DNA of 64,000 nt from Neospora caninum Liverpool (lineage: Eukaryota > Apicomplexa > Conoidasida > Eucoccidiorida > Sarcocystidae), in NCBI RefSeq assembly GCF_000208865.1, contig NC_018390.1, positions 448,798 to 512,797 of the forward strand. The letters run 5' to 3'. The stretch's first letter is position 1. Every line of letters begins with the position of its first letter. Positions 36,583-48,082 of this stretch are shown piece by piece. Under the pieces are notes generated by a model. It had not been told where the DNA came from. It ran no database searches and was given only the letters and a program-made list of their open reading frames with translations. Made by a program: the position numbers and the translations under genes.

Positions 36583-39245
36583 CTGCATCCCCTCTCACTC
36601 TCTTCCAGAGTACCGGCGGCTCAGAGGAGGAGTGCAGCCCGGACGGGTAACGGGGGCTGGTCGCGTGTCCCGGGCTGGGGGCGAAAACGTCAGCGGGCCG
36701 CGCCGTTGTCTTTGAGGAAGGACGGGCGGCAATCGGGTACGCGAGAGCTCCCACTGTCGCGAAAGAGAAACGATTCCGCAGTTTTGTGTTTCGCAGTCCT
36801 TGTTGCATGCCCGACAGAGTACATTGCTTTTCTTTCCAACAAAGGTCAACGCCTATCTTGCGCATCGGACACGGGCAGACTGTGACGTTAAGACTCGGGG
36901 GCACGTCTGCAGTATTCTCACTTTTTCAAACCTCGCAGACCCCCGAAGCTGTCAATGATTGCGGGCGCAGTGCCATCTCTCCGACTCACCTGCACGTTGT
37001 CACCGGATTCATCGAGAGTGTGGCGTTCTGCTTCTTTCCGACATTGTATCCTCTTATAGCCTTGCATTTACCGTACCTCTCGAGTCCGATTCACCGCACA
37101 TTGCACCCGCTTGAATAGTAACAAAATTTTTTGTGACGGCTATGGCGCATCTCCTGCAAGCAGGCGCGACCCGCTTTGGGGTCTCTTCGTCGGTGTCGCA
37201 CTTTTCCCTCCATCACCAAGTGCAACTGAAGCTCCGACTTGGTCCTCGAATAGTTTTGACCCTTTTACTCCTCGTCGCAACCACATCACAGCTGTGTGGC
37301 GACAGTACTTTTTTCACGACTAACGGAGCCGTTGCTCAAAAAACTGCGCCGTTCAGATGCGAGGATATTGATAACGGGACACAGTGCACGTGCGAGGCAA
37401 CCTCCAGTGAAAGTGCAATTACTGCAACGCTATCTGCAACTAGGTCTGTGCTGCAGTTGCTTTGCAAAACCGGTTTAACATGGACACCAGCCGGAGCGGA
37501 CAACAAGCAAGTATGCCCAGAAACCACAACCGACCTGAAGCAGTGCACGAAGGGTGGAGGCGAGCACCAATGTATTGATGTTACAACCTTGCTCGCTGGC
37601 TCCACCGATGATATCAAATGGAGAGAGGTTACAGGAGTTCCACCGACCGCTGATAAAAGCAAGATACTAACCATTCCGGCCGCGAATCTCCCCTACTCCG
37701 ACAAAAAATTCATTGTTGGTTGCCTCTCTAGTGATCAAAGCACATCCAAATGCAAATTGACAGTGACGCTTGAGGCGAGGCCAAGTGTGACAGAAAAAAA
37801 CCATACCGTTACATGTGCCTACGGAAAGACTAGCAATCCCACACACCAAACCGTCAAGCTAAGCCCGTCGCAAAACAGCTTCACTCTGGTGTGCGGAAGC
37901 GAGGGAGAAGTTCTCCCGACGAAATACCAGGACACCTATTGTGGCAGTAAGGACGGAGAGAGCGCCGCCGCCAAGCAGTGCAGTGGCAACTACACAGAAG
38001 TTATACCAACTTACGAAAACACATGGTGGGAGGAGACCAAGGATAAAACCTCATACAGTCTGGTAATTCCTTCGGACAGTTTTCCGGAGGAGGAGACGAA
38101 GATTACGCTTGGGTGTCAAAAGAAGGCTTCTACGTCAGGCGACAGAACCAGAGAAGAAGCGACAGCAGCTGCGTCAACTGTTTGCACCGTGGACGTGACG
38201 ATTGAGGGTGTGACATCGTCGGCGTCCCTGTCTCGGGGTATGGATGGTGTGCTTTTCTGGGTTGTGGGTTTCGGGGCGATGTCGATTGCATTTGCATGCT
38301 TGTGATGTGATTTGATTTCGGTGACTCGTGCTGGGTGTTGAGTTGAGGATGCTGGCCTCACTTTGAAGCCCTGAAGGTGAAGTAATTTCAGGTCCATGCA
38401 TATTCTTTAGAATTGAATCCCCGCCGCTGACTACGGAAATATAAATGACGTAAACCTTTTGCGTCACCGGTGTACCCGTTTCCGCTCTTCTCACTCTGGG
38501 GCCAAACCCGCCTCACTGTGCCCCGATGGCGTGCCAATTTTTTTTGCGCTAACGCCCATGTGATGGAGAATTAAAAAAAAACGGTGCTGTCTCTTCGCAC
38601 TGCCGTCTCCAAATCCCACTTGGTCTTGCGCGGAGTGTTCCAAGCCGGTGCTGCTGTGAAGAGCTGTGCTGGTGCGCGAACACATGTGCTTTTTCCCAGT
38701 ACACCTAGCTGCGTTTACGTCGGCCTCTAAAAGGTTGTTGACTGTTCGGGTTTGCGGGTTCTCACCTCCAGCTATGTGGGGCGTGAGGAACAGTGTTGCC
38801 TCTCCTCAGGGATACCTCTGGAAGGAGCGCGTTTCCTATCGTTTTACCGCCTGTTTCAAGATGAAATAGTATGCACCACCATTTCAAGGAAAGACTCATC
38901 CAACCTTCCTATTCCCCACATGCACTACCCTCAGCCCTTCCGGCAAACAGCGCTATGGTAGGGCGGAGAAGAAATTCATTTGTTTATAGTTAAAATATTC
39001 TGTAGCGCCTCACGTCCGGCCTGTGGGGCTATCTTCTTGTATCTGGCAGTGCCTTCCCTGAAAGAGATCACATGTATGATCTCAGTGACTTTGTAGTATT
39101 TCCATAAGCGAATTCCACTGAAGGACTTCACTCCGTCAGTCTTTGAGGCCGGGATGTCCGCGTCATCTGGCGACTGTTGTCTTTTCTCAAGGATACTGAT
39201 AGCAGATCATACAATGTATCCCCATGCATTGCTGACAAATCAACA
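36583..39245. repeat. Duplicated SRS unit, copy 1
   Basis: Matches 40474-43139 in direct orientation with an offset of about 3.9 kb, covering the upstream region, SRS gene 8 and about 0.9 kb of 3' flank. Identity is very high, apart from two patches inside domain 1 and part of the upstream region. Confidence 0.85.
37142..38305 (+). CDS. SRS-family GPI-anchored surface antigen (array gene 8)
   Basis: 387 aa, single exon on the plus strand. It starts M-A-H-L-L-Q-A-G-A-T-R-F-G. A hydrophobic signal segment lies at about 33-50 (R-I-V-L-T-L-L-L-L-V-A-T-T). Two SRS domains with the family cysteines follow, then a C-terminal hydrophobic tail (V-L-F-W-V-V-G-F-G-A-M-S-I-A-F-A-C-L) fitting GPI attachment. 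The 3' half and about 170 bp of 3' flank look identical to gene 9. Domain 1 differs in two patches: around C-T-C-E-A-T-S-S-E-S and around K-Q-C-T-K-G-G-G-E-H-Q-C. Confidence 0.93.
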   Translation: MAHLLQAGATRFGVSSSVSHFSLHHQVQLKLRLGPRIVLTLLLLVATTSQLCGDSTFFTTNGAVAQKTAPFRCEDIDNGTQCTCEATSSESAITATLSATRSVLQLLCKTGLTWTPAGADNKQVCPETTTDLKQCTKGGGEHQCIDVTTLLAGSTDDIKWREVTGVPPTADKSKILTIPAANLPYSDKKFIVGCLSSDQSTSKCKLTVTLEARPSVTEKNHTVTCAYGKTSNPTHQTVKLSPSQNSFTLVCGSEGEVLPTKYQDTYCGSKDGESAAAKQCSGNYTEVIPTYENTWWEETKDKTSYSLVIPSDSFPEEETKITLGCQKKASTSGDRTREEATAAASTVCTVDVTIEGVTSSASLSRGMDGVLFWVVGFGAMSIAFACL

Positions 39246-39249
39246 TTCG

Positions 39250-39500
39250 GGTGCGAATACGAAGGTCTAGGATCAGAAGCCTCTTTTGCTCGAGTCTCTT
39301 CTCGTACCGACGCTATCCAAACGACCACGAGATTCATATCAAACTTTCAAGAGAGATTCAGTTTCGCTTGCGTGTGGCGAATCTTTGCTGCATCCCTTGC
39401 ACCCGTGCACAGACGAAGAGAGAAGAACACTGGAAGACCTGCGTGTGCTCCCTCAAGTGATACTAGCCTTCGTCGGATGCTGCAGACTGGCCTGTCACAA
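39250..39500. repeat. Segment shared with the front of the SRS remnant at 44.4 kb
   Basis: Runs from TAGGATCAGAAGCCTCTTTT through GATGCTGCAGACTGGCCTG and matches 44230-44473. In this copy the match ends at GAAAG and no SRS domain follows; in the other copy SRS domain 2 begins there. Confidence 0.75.
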
Positions 39501-40473
39501 GAAAGTGCTGTGTCTTACCACGTAAAACTGTGCTACCACACTCCGGACACAATGCGACCCTCCGCAGCGCAGTCACACACTTATCTAGGGAAGAATGCGT
39601 CGTCCCACGAACGACCTGGAGAGACAAAGCTACCTAGCTGACGGCCTCGATGTACCTTTGTCTACATACGCACGGAGGAACAGGGGGTGATGAGAGGGTC
39701 CGGCGCCATACAGTGGTTGGCAGTAGCTAGAACGGGCTTTCTAGCAGTGATTTATGCTTCTCTTGATACTACTGTGCATTCAATCAAGTTAATGGTAGCT
39801 CCCGCTTTGCATGCTTCTCTCCGCGACTCACAATCTCCCTCTGTGTCACTCATTCGCGCTTTTCGTGGGATTCTCAAGTCAGATGAGGGAATTTGAAGGA
39901 CCAGGCTCCAGCCTTGAAAGTCCAGAACCATAAGGACAGCGCGTGGTTGCTATTGTGCGAGAAGACAGCCAAATATCGAAGTCTGCTCATCCTTTGTACA
40001 GTCAGTTTCCCACGGTCTTCCCATTCCCAGATTGACCTGTAATCGCACCCCTGCAGGCATCTGTGCCTCGCCCACCTGACAAGACACTTTCGATATCCCC
40101 CGCACCAGCGCCGTCCAGCTCCCCTCTCCCGGCGTCCTGGCGGGCCTCGACCCTGTCTGTAATCCTGATGAAAGACGCCAGGAATGTCTCAAGATTCACT
40201 GTACCTCAACTCGAAACAAAATGTTGCAAACCTGTGGGTGCACATGCCACGAAAGTAGTCTTCACCTAATATGTCCGTCCAAATATATAGGCTGCCGAGC
40301 TGTTGCAGCGCGACCATGTCGACAAGACACGCAGCGTGGCAGAGTCACTCCACTGAGGGCAGCGGCTCGACTTCCTCTCACACCATCCCTCGACACCCCA
40401 GATTGCCCGTCAGCTAAAATGATAAGAAAAATCTCAACGACACACCACGTGCGCGTGCAGAAGATGTGGCCAG
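39501..40473. other. Intergenic DNA between SRS genes 8 and 9
   Basis: No supported gene. Open frames are short and without recognisable motifs. It holds the far upstream region of SRS gene 9. Confidence 0.4.
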
Positions 40474-43139
40474 TTGCATCCCCCCTCACTCTCTTCCAGA
40501 GTACCGGCGGCTGAGAGGAGGAGTGCAGCTCGGACGGGTAACGGGGGCTGGTCGCGTGTCCCGGGCTGGGGGCGAAAACGTCAGCGGGCCGCGCCGTTGT
40601 CTTAGAGGAAGGACGGGCGGCAATCGGGTACGCAAGAACTCCCACTGTCGCGAAACAGAAAACGGTTCCCGAGTTCTGTGTTTCGCAGTCCTTGTTGCAT
40701 GCTCCACACAGTATACGTTGCTTTCCTTTCCAACAAAGGTCAACGCCGATCTTGCGCATCGGACATGGGCAGACTGTAACGTCAAAACTCCATTTTGGGC
40801 ACGTCTGCAGTATTCTCACTTTTTCAAACCTCGCAGACCCCCGAAGCTGTCAATGATTGCGGGCGCAGTGCCATCCCTCTGTTTCACTTCCACGTTATCA
40901 GCTGAATCGTCGAGACTGCGGTGTTTCGTTTGTTTCCGACATTGTATCCTCTTATAGCCTTGCATTTACCGTACCTCTCGAGTCCGATTCACCGCACACT
41001 GCACCCGTTTGAATAGTAACAAAATTTGTTTGTGACGGCTATGGCGCATCTCCTGCAAGCAGGCGCGACCCGCTTTGGGGTCTCTTCGTCGGTGTCGCAC
41101 TTTTCCCTCCATCACCAAGTGCAACTGAAGCTCCGACTTGGTCCTCGAATAGTTTTGACCCTTTTTCTCCTCGTCGCAACCACGTCACAGCTGTGTGGCG
41201 ACATTACTTTCTTCACGACTAACGGAGCCCTTGCTCAAGATACTGCGACGTCCAGATGCGAGGATATTGATAACGGGACACAGTGCACGTGTGATAAGGT
41301 TAGTGGAAATCAACAGGATCTTACGGCAACGGTATCTGCAACTAGGTCTGTGCTGCAGTTGCTTTGCAAAACCGGTTTAACATGGACACCAGCCGGAGCG
41401 GACAACAAGCAAGTATGCCCAGAAGCCACAGATGACCTGAAGAACTGCAAGAAGGATGGTGGTAAGCCTACATGTATTGATGTCACGACCCTGCTTGCTG
41501 GTTCCACCGACGGCATAAAGTGGCAAGATGTTACAGGAGAGTCGCAGGGCAATACTAAAGGCAAGCAACTAACCATTCCGGCCGCGAATCTCCCCTACTC
41601 CGACAAAAAATTCATTGTTGGTTGCCTCTCTAGTGATCAAAGCACATCCAAATGCAAATTGACAGTGACGCTTGAGGCGAGGCCAAGTGTGACAGAAAAA
41701 AACCATACCGTTACATGTGCCTACGGAAAGACTAGCAATCCCACACACCAAACCGTCAAGCTAAGCCCGTCGCAAAACAGCTTCACTCTGGTGTGCGGAA
41801 GCGAGGGAGAAGTTCTCCCGACGAAATACCAGGACACCTATTGTGGCAGTAAGGACGGAGAGAGCGCCGCCGCCAAGCAGTGCAGTGGCAACTACACAGA
41901 AGTTATACCAACTTACGAAAACACATGGTGGGAGGAGACCAAGGATAAAACCTCATACAGTCTGGTAATTCCTTCGGACAGTTTTCCGGAGGAGGAGACG
42001 AAGATTACGCTTGGGTGTCAAAAGAAGGCTTCTACGTCAGGCGACAGAACCAGAGAAGAAGCGACAGCAGCTGCGTCAACTGTTTGCACCGTGGACGTGA
42101 CGATTGAGGGTGTGACATCGTCGGCGTCCCTGTCTCGGGGTATGGATGGTGTGCTTTTCTGGGTTGTGGGTTTCGGGGCGATGTCGATTGCATTTGCATG
42201 CTTGTGATGTGATTTGATTTCGGTGACTCGTGCTGGGTGTTGAGTTGAGGATGCTGGCCTCACTTTGAAGCCCTGAAGGTGAAGTAATTTCAGGTCCATG
42301 CATATTCTTTAGAATTGAATCCCCGCCGCTGACTACGGAAATATAAATGACGTAAACCTTTTGCGTCACCGGTGTACCCGTTTCCGCTCTTCTCACTCCG
42401 GGCCACGCCCGCCTCAATGTGCCCCGATGGCGTGCCAATTTTTTTTGCGCTAACGCCCATGTGATGCAGAATTAAAAAAAACGGTGCTGTCTCTTCGCAC
42501 TGCCGTCTCCAAATCCCACTTGGTCTTGCGCGGAGTGTTCCAAGCCGGTGCTGCTGTGAAGAGCTGTGCTGGTGCGCGAACACATGTGCTTTTTCCCAGT
42601 ACACCTAGCTGCGTTTACGTCGGCCTCTAAGGCGCTGTTGGCTGTTCGGATTTGCGGGTTCTCTCCTCCAGCTATGTGGGGCGTGAGGAACAGTGTTGCC
42701 TCTCCTCAGGGATACCTCTGGAAGGAGCGCGTTTCCTATCGTTTTACCGCCTGTTTCAAGATGAAATAGTATGCACCACCATTTCAAGGAAAGACTCATC
42801 CAACCTTCCTATTCCCCACATGCACTACCCTCAGCCCTTCCGGCAAACAGCGCTATGGTAGGGCGGAGAAAAAATTCATTTGTTTGTAGTGAAAATGCTG
42901 TGTAGCGCCTCAAGACCGGCCTGTGGGGCTATCTTCTTGTATCTGGCAGTGCCTTCCCTGAAAGAGATCACCTGTATTAAATTAATGGCTATGCAGTACA
43001 GTCGTAAAAGCATCTTCCATCCGTCAGGCTGTTGAAGGCGGGATGGCCGCGTCATCTAACGACTGCTGTCTTTTCTCAAGGATACTGATAGCAGATCATA
43101 CAATGAATCCCCATGCGTTGTTGACGAATCAACAATCAG
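40474..43139. repeat. Duplicated SRS unit, copy 2
   Basis: Second copy of 36583-39245. The match is interrupted at about 43140 by a ~1.08 kb insertion and resumes at about 44219. Confidence 0.85.
41041..42207 (+). CDS. SRS-family GPI-anchored surface antigen (array gene 9)
   Basis: 388 aa, single exon. The signal region is nearly identical to gene 8 (one Leu/Phe change in the core), and the second half, including all of domain 2 and the GPI-type tail, looks identical. It differs from gene 8 in domain 1 in two blocks: C-D-K-V-S-G-N-Q-Q-D-L-T after the C-T-C motif, and K-N-C-K-K-D-G-G-K-P-T-C followed by Q-D-V-T-G-E-S-Q-G-N-T-K. The start context is TGACGGCTATGG, the same in both copies. Confidence 0.93.
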   Translation: MAHLLQAGATRFGVSSSVSHFSLHHQVQLKLRLGPRIVLTLFLLVATTSQLCGDITFFTTNGALAQDTATSRCEDIDNGTQCTCDKVSGNQQDLTATVSATRSVLQLLCKTGLTWTPAGADNKQVCPEATDDLKNCKKDGGKPTCIDVTTLLAGSTDGIKWQDVTGESQGNTKGKQLTIPAANLPYSDKKFIVGCLSSDQSTSKCKLTVTLEARPSVTEKNHTVTCAYGKTSNPTHQTVKLSPSQNSFTLVCGSEGEVLPTKYQDTYCGSKDGESAAAKQCSGNYTEVIPTYENTWWEETKDKTSYSLVIPSDSFPEEETKITLGCQKKASTSGDRTREEATAAASTVCTVDVTIEGVTSSASLSRGMDGVLFWVVGFGAMSIAFACL

Positions 43140-44218
43140 GTTTTTAAAGCTTCCGGGTTTAAGCTTAAATGTACAGATGGACATGATTAATCCTTGTACG
43201 GTTTGTACCTATTTGACACCTCAGTTTCTAGGGTGATTTCCTTCATCGACACTCGGTGAGGAACTTTCAGTTATCGACTAGCAATGGCATTACCCGTGCA
43301 ACTCTTGGCAACACGGCTGACACATGCAGAGTTCGACAGGTTTACTGAGGGTGGGGGTTACCGATATGCATGAGAAGCATCTTCAGTGCATGTCTCATTT
43401 CGTTTTTGTGAGCTAGGCCATCTATTGTCGAGAAAAGGGGGTATACATTTTCACGACGTCTGTCACAAGTTCTTTATGAGCCTTTCGCATTGACACAGCC
43501 AGCAAAAGTGGAGAGCCAGCATAAGGAGAATGCTGGGCCGATCATCAGGTCTCTTAAACTTTCCATCGTGCAAGTCTAACAGATTCAAAACCGTGTCCAT
43601 ACAATCGTGCACGGTTCTTCAGCCACCCCACATCCGGGAAAAACGTGGCAGAAAACTGTAAGATATATAGCTTTTTCAATAGCAATCTAATAAATTAATG
43701 TAACAGTTAATTTAACTCTATCTCCAGGAAGAGTCATTTTTGTGCTAGTTTCTTTTGTATTTGAAGCAGATCTTATAGAACTTGAAATATTTATAGTATA
43801 TACATAATATAGGCACACTATAGAGGCATGGGAAGGAAGACTGCGTATCGCAGTCGCGGCTGACCACGAGCGTCTCTGTGTGTGTCCAGATGTCCTGGAA
43901 AAATCGCTGGCTCAGCAGACGCCCAGAGGTTCTGAGGACAGGTAGGCACTAGAGGAGAGTCGCCATCGGGTTCTTACAGGCAGCCAAAACACTTCCCACC
44001 GGTCCACGTTCCGTGGGAATCCATCGAGACAAGATGTGGGAATCACAAGCGAGACTCTGCGCAGCTTGGGACTAGTGACAGCAGCCTGTTTGCCAGACTC
44101 GATCCGCCGGTAGCAACGCAACACCAATTCGACTGTACCACCACAAGGTGCCAGAAATGATGAGATCGTGACTGACTCGAAATCGTTTGTCAGCAGGAGC
44201 CCACACCCCGATAGCGTG
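43140..44218. other. ~1.08 kb insertion relative to the sister unit
   Basis: Sequence on both sides is continuous in the sister unit (around 39240-39260), so this segment was gained here or lost there. No ORF of note and no terminal repeats were seen. It contains the AT-rich plastid-like fragment at 43667-43816. Confidence 0.6.
43667..43816 (-). pseudogene. Nuclear fragment resembling apicoplast tufA (EF-Tu)
   Basis: On the minus strand one frame reads Y-V-Y-T-I-N-I-S-S-S-I, later S-T-K-M-T-L-P-G-D-R-V-K-L-T-V-T-L-I-Y, then a TAG in place of the expected Pro codon, then I-A-I-E-K. This follows the start of EF-Tu domain III: the T-T-D-V-T-G-type strand, then M-P-G-D-x-V-x-x-T-V-x-L-I-x-P-I-A-I-E-K. 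The stretch is about 70-75% AT with plastid-like codon use (AAA, TTA, ATT), unlike its surroundings, and the match stops abruptly on both sides. Most likely a plastid DNA insertion (NUPT) of ~150 bp, not a functional gene. The assignment rests on motif recognition, not a database search. Confidence 0.7.
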
Positions 44219-44473
44219 CGGAAAGCGAATATGAAGCTCTAGGATCAGAAGCCTCTTTTGCTCGAGTTTTTCTTCTCGTACCGACACTATCGAATCGAAC
44301 AATCGAATCATATCAAATTTCAAAAGAGAATCAGTTTCGCTTGCGCGTGACAAACCTTTGCCGCATCCCTTACACCCGTGCACAAACGAAGAGAGAAGAA
44401 CACTGGGAGACTTGCCTGTGTTCCCTCAAGTGCTTCTAGCCTTCGTCGGATGCTGCAGACTGGCCTGACACAA
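44219..44473. repeat. Second copy of the segment at 39250-39500
   Basis: Resumes the match to the sister unit after the insertion. It ends at CAAGAAAG, where the SRS domain 2 remnant begins. Confidence 0.75.
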
Positions 44474-44980
44474 GAAAGCCAGATCATCACCTGTGCCAAC
44501 GGAAAGACTAGCAATGAGTCGCATCATGCTGTCAAGCTGACCCCGTCGCAAAACAGGTTCAGTCTGGTTTGCGGAAGCGAGGGAGAAATTCTCCCAACGA
44601 AATACCAGGACACCTATTTCGTCAGTAAGGACGGAGAGGGCTCCGCCGCTCAGACGTGCAGTGGCAACTACACAGAAGTTATCCCAGTCTACGAGAGCAA
44701 GTGGTGGCAGACGAATGGGGACAACACCACATTCACTTTGGTTATACCAGAGGACGGTTTTCCAGAGGAGGAAACGAAGATTGTGGTTGGTTGCCAAAAG
44801 AAGCCTACTCAGTGCTTGACGGTGAGGGGGGCCGCTGGAAAGGACTCACCGACTGTTTGCACCAGTGACGTAATGATTGAGGGTGTCGCATCGTCGTCTG
44901 TGGGCGTGGTTGGTGTGTTTCCCTGGACCGTGGGCTTCGCGGCTACGTCGAGTGCATTTTGCATTTTTGTGATGACCTGA
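44378..44980 (+). pseudogene. SRS remnant with domain 2 and GPI tail only (array gene 10)
   Basis: The frame is open for 200 codons, but SRS similarity begins only at I-I-T-C-A-N-G-K-T-S-N (about 44480). Signal segment and domain 1 are absent, replaced by a duplicated non-SRS segment. Domain 2 is well kept (L-V-C-G-S-E-G-E-I-L-P-T-K-Y, C-S-G-N-Y-T-E-V-I-P-V-Y-E-S), but T-Y-C-V reads T-Y-F-V, losing one of the six conserved cysteines. A hydrophobic tail follows. Without a signal peptide it is unlikely to reach the surface. A short single-domain product from an unseen upstream exon cannot be excluded. Confidence 0.75.
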
Positions 44981-47208: not shown

Positions 47209-48082
47209 CTACGTTGTTACACCGAGTTCGCGGATCAGGCGTTCTTCAGCGGGGTCTTGGACGAGCTGCTCAGCGTCTTGCGGAAGGGGAGACTGCCGAT
47301 CGCTTTCCTTCGAGGGAAGAAAAGGACACCGACCGTCCACGTACCAAACATATCCCAAGTAGGTCACAGAAGCGTACGTGATCCACGACTGGAGCTTCTG
47401 AACAGAGAAGGGAAGAAAAGGAAGAGAAGACAGCAGAAAGGGTGTGACGCTGACTGCGAGAGAAAGTGGGAGACCGCGAAGAACCTCCACGAACATACTT
47501 TCCTAGACAGGTGATAAGCACGTGGCGCAAGATGAACGGCGAGAAGAAGAGGAGACGAGAGCACGGGAAGAGATTAAGAGTCGAGACGAACGAAGCGGCA
47601 GACCTACACCAGCGCGACAGGCGGCGCGAGCACAAAAACGCAGGAGACAGAAGGCTCAAGTACCGATAAAAAGACCCCGGAATACGTAGAGAGAAAGAGA
47701 AGGGTGCGAAAGAAAGAGAGAAAGAGATACGGAGAGAACGGAAGGAAGAAGCAGAAGGGAGAGTGGGCCGGGGATAGCAACCTGAACACAGGCTAACACA
47801 GTAAAACTTGGATCCGGTAAACAAGGACGGAAGCAAAGGGGAGGAAAAGGGATGTCGGAGAGAATGGAGCCCGTCAAAAATTCAGACAAGGGAAAAGACG
47901 CAGGACTCAGCGAGACAGTCCGGAAGAGAAGAACGAGCGTCGGCAGGGAGAGAAGAGACGCATGTGAAACGAAGGAAAAGAGCAGCTGAGGGCCCAACAG
48001 GAGATGGATCGAAGCTCACAGTGAATCCAGTTGGTTTGATAATGAAAATGTCGCTTAGAAGGCGGCCCAGTCTTTTGGCCAT
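47209..48082 (-). CDS. Small two-exon conserved-looking protein, function unknown
   Basis: Exon 1 is 48020-48082, from an ATG in a strong coccidian context (CCGAAAATGGCC): M-A-K-R-L-G-R-L-L-S-D-I-F-I-I-K-P-T-G-F-T, then donor GTGAGC. Exon 2 is 47209-47397, after a long pyrimidine tract and TTCAG; it opens K-L-Q-S-W-I-T-Y-A-S-V-T-Y-L-G-Y-V-W-Y-V and ends I-R-E-L-G-V-T-T-stop. Both ends are phase 0, giving 83 aa. The basic, amphipathic N-terminus and aromatic hydrophobic centre would fit a small membrane-associated, perhaps mitochondrial, subunit; this is inference only. A further small exon inside the 622 bp intron is possible. Confidence 0.55.

Follow-up and report, generated by a model that had tools for sequence, protein, structure and literature searches.

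The apicoplast is a secondary, nonphotosynthetic plastid. NUPTs as well as NUMTs were reportedly described in Toxoplasma gondii by Namasivayam et al. in 2023. For T. gondii, PMC9490983 gives the number of NUMTs as more than 9000. A 2025 paper implicates end joining in the integration of organelle DNA in Toxoplasma, which, according to the same source, seems to be without the microhomology pathway (PMC12181080). Mosaic mitochondrial-plastid insertions, termed numins, were described in nine plants and were defined by the presence, within 3 kb, of at least one certain mitochondrial fragment and one plastid fragment; an overlap of 0 to 10 bases between fragments is given as a hallmark of part of them (Portugez et al. 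2018, PMC6215612). The main text of that paper makes no mention of Toxoplasma, Neospora, Plasmodium, apicomplexa, or the apicoplast, and a literature search covering titles and abstract openings, with partial coverage, recognized no mixed plastid-mitochondrial insertion in an apicomplexan.

The locus analyzed here lies in a 64,000-base stretch of the Neospora caninum Liverpool genome (57,546,354 bases, 14 contigs), referred to below as the window (C11:448798-512797). Like the T. gondii NUPTs and NUMTs, for which PMC12181080 points to an origin by end joining, it consists of short shards of organelle DNA that lie in the nuclear genome of a tissue coccidian. It differs from the T. gondii set in its host, N. 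caninum, and in the setting of its tufA shard, which has mitochondrial-type pieces nearby and lies within an SRS array. The resemblance to numins, as these are defined in PMC6215612, is that a single nuclear site has mitochondrial-type and plastid fragments less than 3 kb apart and that at two further N. caninum loci (L112 and L111) such fragments join within a few bases. Numins, however, were described in plants, whereas the plastid here is the secondary, nonphotosynthetic one.

The tufA shard occupies 43666..43809 on the minus strand. Its 144 bases (48 codons), read from 43809 to 43666, translate as YYVYTINISSSIRSASNTKETSTKMTLPGDRVKLTVTLIY*IAIEKAI, with a single in-frame TAG, and align without gaps to residues 335 to 382 of the 403 residues of N. 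caninum apicoplast EF-Tu (UniRef A0A4Y5UMP3), of which 36 of 48 are identical. That protein was the sole match (E 2.3e-13) in a search of 5.8 billion proteins with E values up to 10 and 10 candidates, so that the plastid-derived tufA fragment that the preliminary description had placed here was recovered with a significant protein match. Identity fell to 71% with the apicoplast EF-Tu of T. gondii and 56% with that of Cystoisospora suis. The shard was also matched by NCBIfam TIGR00485 (E 1.9e-6) and by an EF-Tu structure, PDB 8yly_A (E 3.9e-5). A tblastn score of 73.6 bits was obtained with the real shard, whereas 20,000 shuffles of the island that preserved dinucleotides reached 26.2 bits at best. 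The island was correctly described as AT rich with one stop codon; its GC content is 24.3%, compared with 47.4% (43228-43664) and 55.7% (43810-44224) in the adjoining stretches, and A or T stands at 45 of the 48 third codon positions. Judged by protein comparison, the plastid origin is from the same lineage, and the segment on this basis is very probably a NUPT, a nuclear integrant of apicoplast tufA. Because organelle matching was done via protein and via genome repeats, the ends of the shard are approximate.

The shard was previously read as the start of EF-Tu domain III, with the match beginning at MTLPGD. The assignment to domain III holds, but the shard covers positions 38 to 85 of the 106 of the Pfam domain III profile, that is, its middle, and the match starts further upstream, at residue 335. 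The Pfam family GTP_EFTU_D3 reached 20.2 bits on the shard (E 7.6e-4), below its cutoff of 27. No Pfam family was found with the part before the stop alone, and the place of the shard was absent from the results of a genome-wide Pfam search. We attribute these subthreshold and missing Pfam matches to the shortness of the shard. A Pfam search of the six frames of 43142-44224 gave EF-Tu (E 0.015) and a weak match to Peptidase_C62 (E 0.19), the latter dismissed as chance. Functional transfer of the gene to the nucleus was rejected, as 48 of 403 codons are present, with an in-frame stop and no full-length frame.

Twelve of the 48 shard codons differ from the N. caninum apicoplast protein, which takes a minimum of 13 base changes, including the one that creates the TAG. 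Comparison with the apicoplast proteins of related species gives some indication of when the shard entered. At the KL(T/N)VTL site, the shard shares T with N. caninum, against N for both T. gondii and C. suis. The shard again agrees with N. caninum at a second site, both having A, as opposed to S in T. gondii and T in C. suis. A third site is uninformative: the S of the shard matches neither the N of N. caninum nor the G of the other two species. Because the shard has N. caninum-like states at one or two sites, it probably entered on the Neospora line, after the split from Toxoplasma. At present it would be decaying without function.

Two mitochondrial-type pieces lie near the shard. The first (43118..43151; 34 bases) is 91% identical to part of a mitochondrial-type block at another locus, L081 (E 3.8e-7 in a set of 57 loci). 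The matching stretch of L081 sits between cytochrome b pieces, and the 181 bases around it occur at 40 places among the genome matches listed, itself included. The second piece (43153..43227) has 29 dispersed genome matches at 78 to 97% identity, counted separately from its own place and the flank of a paralogous copy described below. Some of these are beside cob or cox1 pieces; for two of them, the distance to a cytochrome b piece is 39 and 293 bases. Among six copies of the second piece that were fetched, two (L018 and L023) share several more pieces with COX1 loci, and three (L019 to L021) have only the second piece and its edges in common with a single COX1 locus, L032, in which there is another copy. 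The second piece was named mitochondrial type because of this association with COX1 loci and cytochrome b pieces, and for both pieces the designation is one by association in sequence. Genome-wide, at E values up to 0.001, there were 21 cox1 places and 47 cytochrome b places and no match for the COX3 family.

The shard is inside a 5.49-Mb contig with SRS genes around it, in agreement with the surface-antigen array in which it was originally placed. The reading frame upstream (41026..42207, plus strand) has two SAG stretches, and that downstream (44378..44980, plus strand) has a single one. Among 10 reading frames tested at 10 to 45 kb, seven have two SAG stretches, two have none, and 44378-44980 is the one with a single stretch. 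The spacers on either side of the shard (43228..43665 and 43810..44224) have no second genome match.

The preliminary description had suggested that organelle DNA served as filler in the repair of a break, and the arrangement fits this suggestion well. We consider it highly probable that the NUPT entered with or near the two mitochondrial-type pieces and was joined into intergenic DNA of the SRS array, most likely as end-joining filler. A double-strand break in an intergenic stretch of the array would have captured the 144-base tufA piece and the two mitochondrial-type pieces through end joining, probably on the Neospora line and before or around the duplication that yielded two SRS units, one of which is the paralogous copy. 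The sister copy would later have lost 1083 bases, and the shard remaining in the window copy would then have decayed. Understood in this way, the finding is genuine, though as a relic of DNA repair rather ordinary, and belongs to a kind already known from NUPTs and NUMTs.

It is possible, though we favor it less, that two or more independent events were involved, with the NUMT and the NUPT landing near each other at separate times. The pieces could represent two events because 438 unexplained bases of nuclear-like GC content separate the plastid piece from the mitochondrial-type pieces. This distance is within the 3 kb of the numin definition, with the mitochondrial identity resting on the cob and cox1 neighborhood, but a 438-base spacer stands where part of the plant numins have an overlap of 0 to 10 bases. 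NUMTs are also common in this genome, as the cox1 and cytochrome b counts indicate. However, the NUMT and the NUPT are similarly diverged, none of 20 other 3-kb chunks of the window shows a NUMT, and two other tufA shards have mitochondrial-type DNA within about 6 bases.

In a tblastn search of the genome with apicoplast EF-Tu, 33 places were returned at E values up to 10; from these, eight besides the window were selected by eye as shards (40 to 72% identity over 29 to 79 residues). Five of these had genome E values of 1.3e-11 to 8.6e-5, and three were weaker (0.0018, 0.013, and 0.29). All eight matched again when fetched (E 2e-15 to 7e-6 in this small set). Because three have E values above 0.001, the tufA shards number firmly six and at most nine, the window included. 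The rarity initially ascribed to apicoplast-derived insertions was thus overstated, there being at least five others of tufA and perhaps eight. At one of them, L112 (C10:3011559), where the shard sits in a 379-residue open frame, tufA (1458-1544) meets mitochondrial-type DNA (1544-1579) with an overlap of one base. At another, L111 (1097-1601), mitochondrial-type matches extend up to 1462 and tufA runs from 1469, about 6 bases apart; the genome-wide tblastn has tufA starting at about 1439, further to the left, so the two may overlap.

Nearby NUMTs were counted by means of 103 library segments drawn from 55 of 57 NUMT loci, six of which had been fetched via the window's own piece. With the filtered library, a NUMT was found in three of nine presumed tufA loci (3 kb each) and in none of 20 other 3-kb chunks, a weak control since all 20 are from this one window, the 21st holding the shard. 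Leaving out the window locus, the comparison is two of eight with 0 of 20. The unfiltered library gave four of nine, the fourth being L113, a weak shard with a match to a single locus. No NUMT match was found in six of the nine presumed tufA loci with the filtered library or in five of the nine with the unfiltered one. The joints at L112 and L111 are more telling than this count.

A broader proposal is that the plastid and mitochondrial DNA arriving at nuclear breaks in tissue coccidia forms a single shared pool, with shards joined or adjoining more often than expected by chance. We put this forward tentatively and regard it as rather doubtful at present. If it is true, a shared pool would mean mosaic organelle insertions outside plants, and a genome-wide count of joints would test the joint escape of DNA from both organelles. 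One contribution of the window is a clear example of an apicoplast shard for N. caninum; more useful is its pointer to an apicomplexan nucleus in which pieces of apicoplast and mitochondrial-type DNA are almost directly joined.

The other reading to be weighed is that the whole block around the shard was recently inserted in the window copy, as the preliminary description supposed. A paralogous copy of the unit (38298..39505, plus strand) lacks 1083 bases (43142..44224 of the window copy) at 39252/39253. BLAST identity is 93% between 42200-43141 and 38298-39252 and 88% between 44225-44478 and 39253-39505, and both flanks are contiguous in the paralogue, as they would be at an empty site. No third copy of the flanks of the SRS unit, which might set the direction of change, was found in the genome. 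A genome search with the 66 bases spanning the breakpoint returned only itself, missing the paralogue as well, and is uninformative. However, the paralogue retains a stub of the first mitochondrial-type piece, 25 bases (39228-39252) that match the mitochondrial-type block at 92% and end exactly at the breakpoint. In the window copy, where the piece spans 43141/43142, the match to that block continues for another 10 bases. Because the paralogue keeps these 25 bases, its deletion of the block fits better than an insertion in the window copy; the direction rests on one 34-base match, 10 bases of it past the breakpoint. Furthermore, none of the tests made gave an organelle match over most of the block, and the organelle pieces are about 8 to 12% diverged.

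Differences amount to at least 13 of 144 bases in the tufA shard, 9 of 75 in the NUMT (or 5 of 64 over its last 64), and 27 of 252 in the right flank of the paralogue. Values of the same order for organelle pieces and right flank do not firmly separate insertion from deletion, and they and the stub make the recency of the insertion doubtful. We therefore consider recent insertion of the block unlikely. On the sequences compared, it is simplest to suppose that the patch predates the parting of the two SRS units and that the 39-kb unit lost the remainder, in a join that shows no microhomology on inspection. This case is also cautionary: a paralogue without the block resembles an empty site yet retains the stub, so that paralogue comparison can mislead.

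The two units may also have exchanged sequence. Window positions 41626-42375, about 750 bases of coding and 3' DNA, are identical to the 37- to 39-kb unit, and the stretches directly before differ by up to 27% between units, a sign of recent gene conversion. To the left of the breakpoint, the last 166 bases differ by 8 to 30% in 75-base steps, the top value coming from a poorly aligned patch; to the right, the difference is 6 to 18% in 50-base steps, except for a final 4-base step without difference. This rise toward the breakpoint may be read as gene conversion halting before a large unmatched block.

Two further explanations are much weaker. An assembly chimera with apicoplast reads would account for the abrupt change in composition, but at least 13 base changes, including a stop, relative to the species' own apicoplast protein favor an old nuclear copy instead and make a chimera very improbable. 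Derivation of the shard by decay from the nuclear EF-Tu gene, which does exist on contig C9, is more improbable still, given an identity of 14 of 46 residues with that gene compared with 36 of 48 for the apicoplast protein and the prevalence of A or T at third codon positions.

Several minor observations were made in the course of the analysis. When viral-collection contigs were searched with apicoplast EF-Tu, 22 loci (L056-L077) came up, none of which was accepted as organelle DNA; they carry EF-Tu-like genes, 21 of them at 47 to 53% and one, the partial L077, at 75% identity to apicoplast EF-Tu. No direct or inverted repeats of 12 bases or more were found inside 43100-44300. An Rfam search of 42200-44500 returned as its sole result a hairpin at 43839-43862 that resembles a bacterial S4 leader; at 23.7 bits it was below the cutoff of 34.7 and was taken as chance. 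The downstream reading frame with a single SAG stretch, where its neighbors have two, is possibly a truncated copy. One strand of 47300-48000 is purine rich, with an AT skew of 0.44 to 0.75 and a GC skew of up to 0.43.
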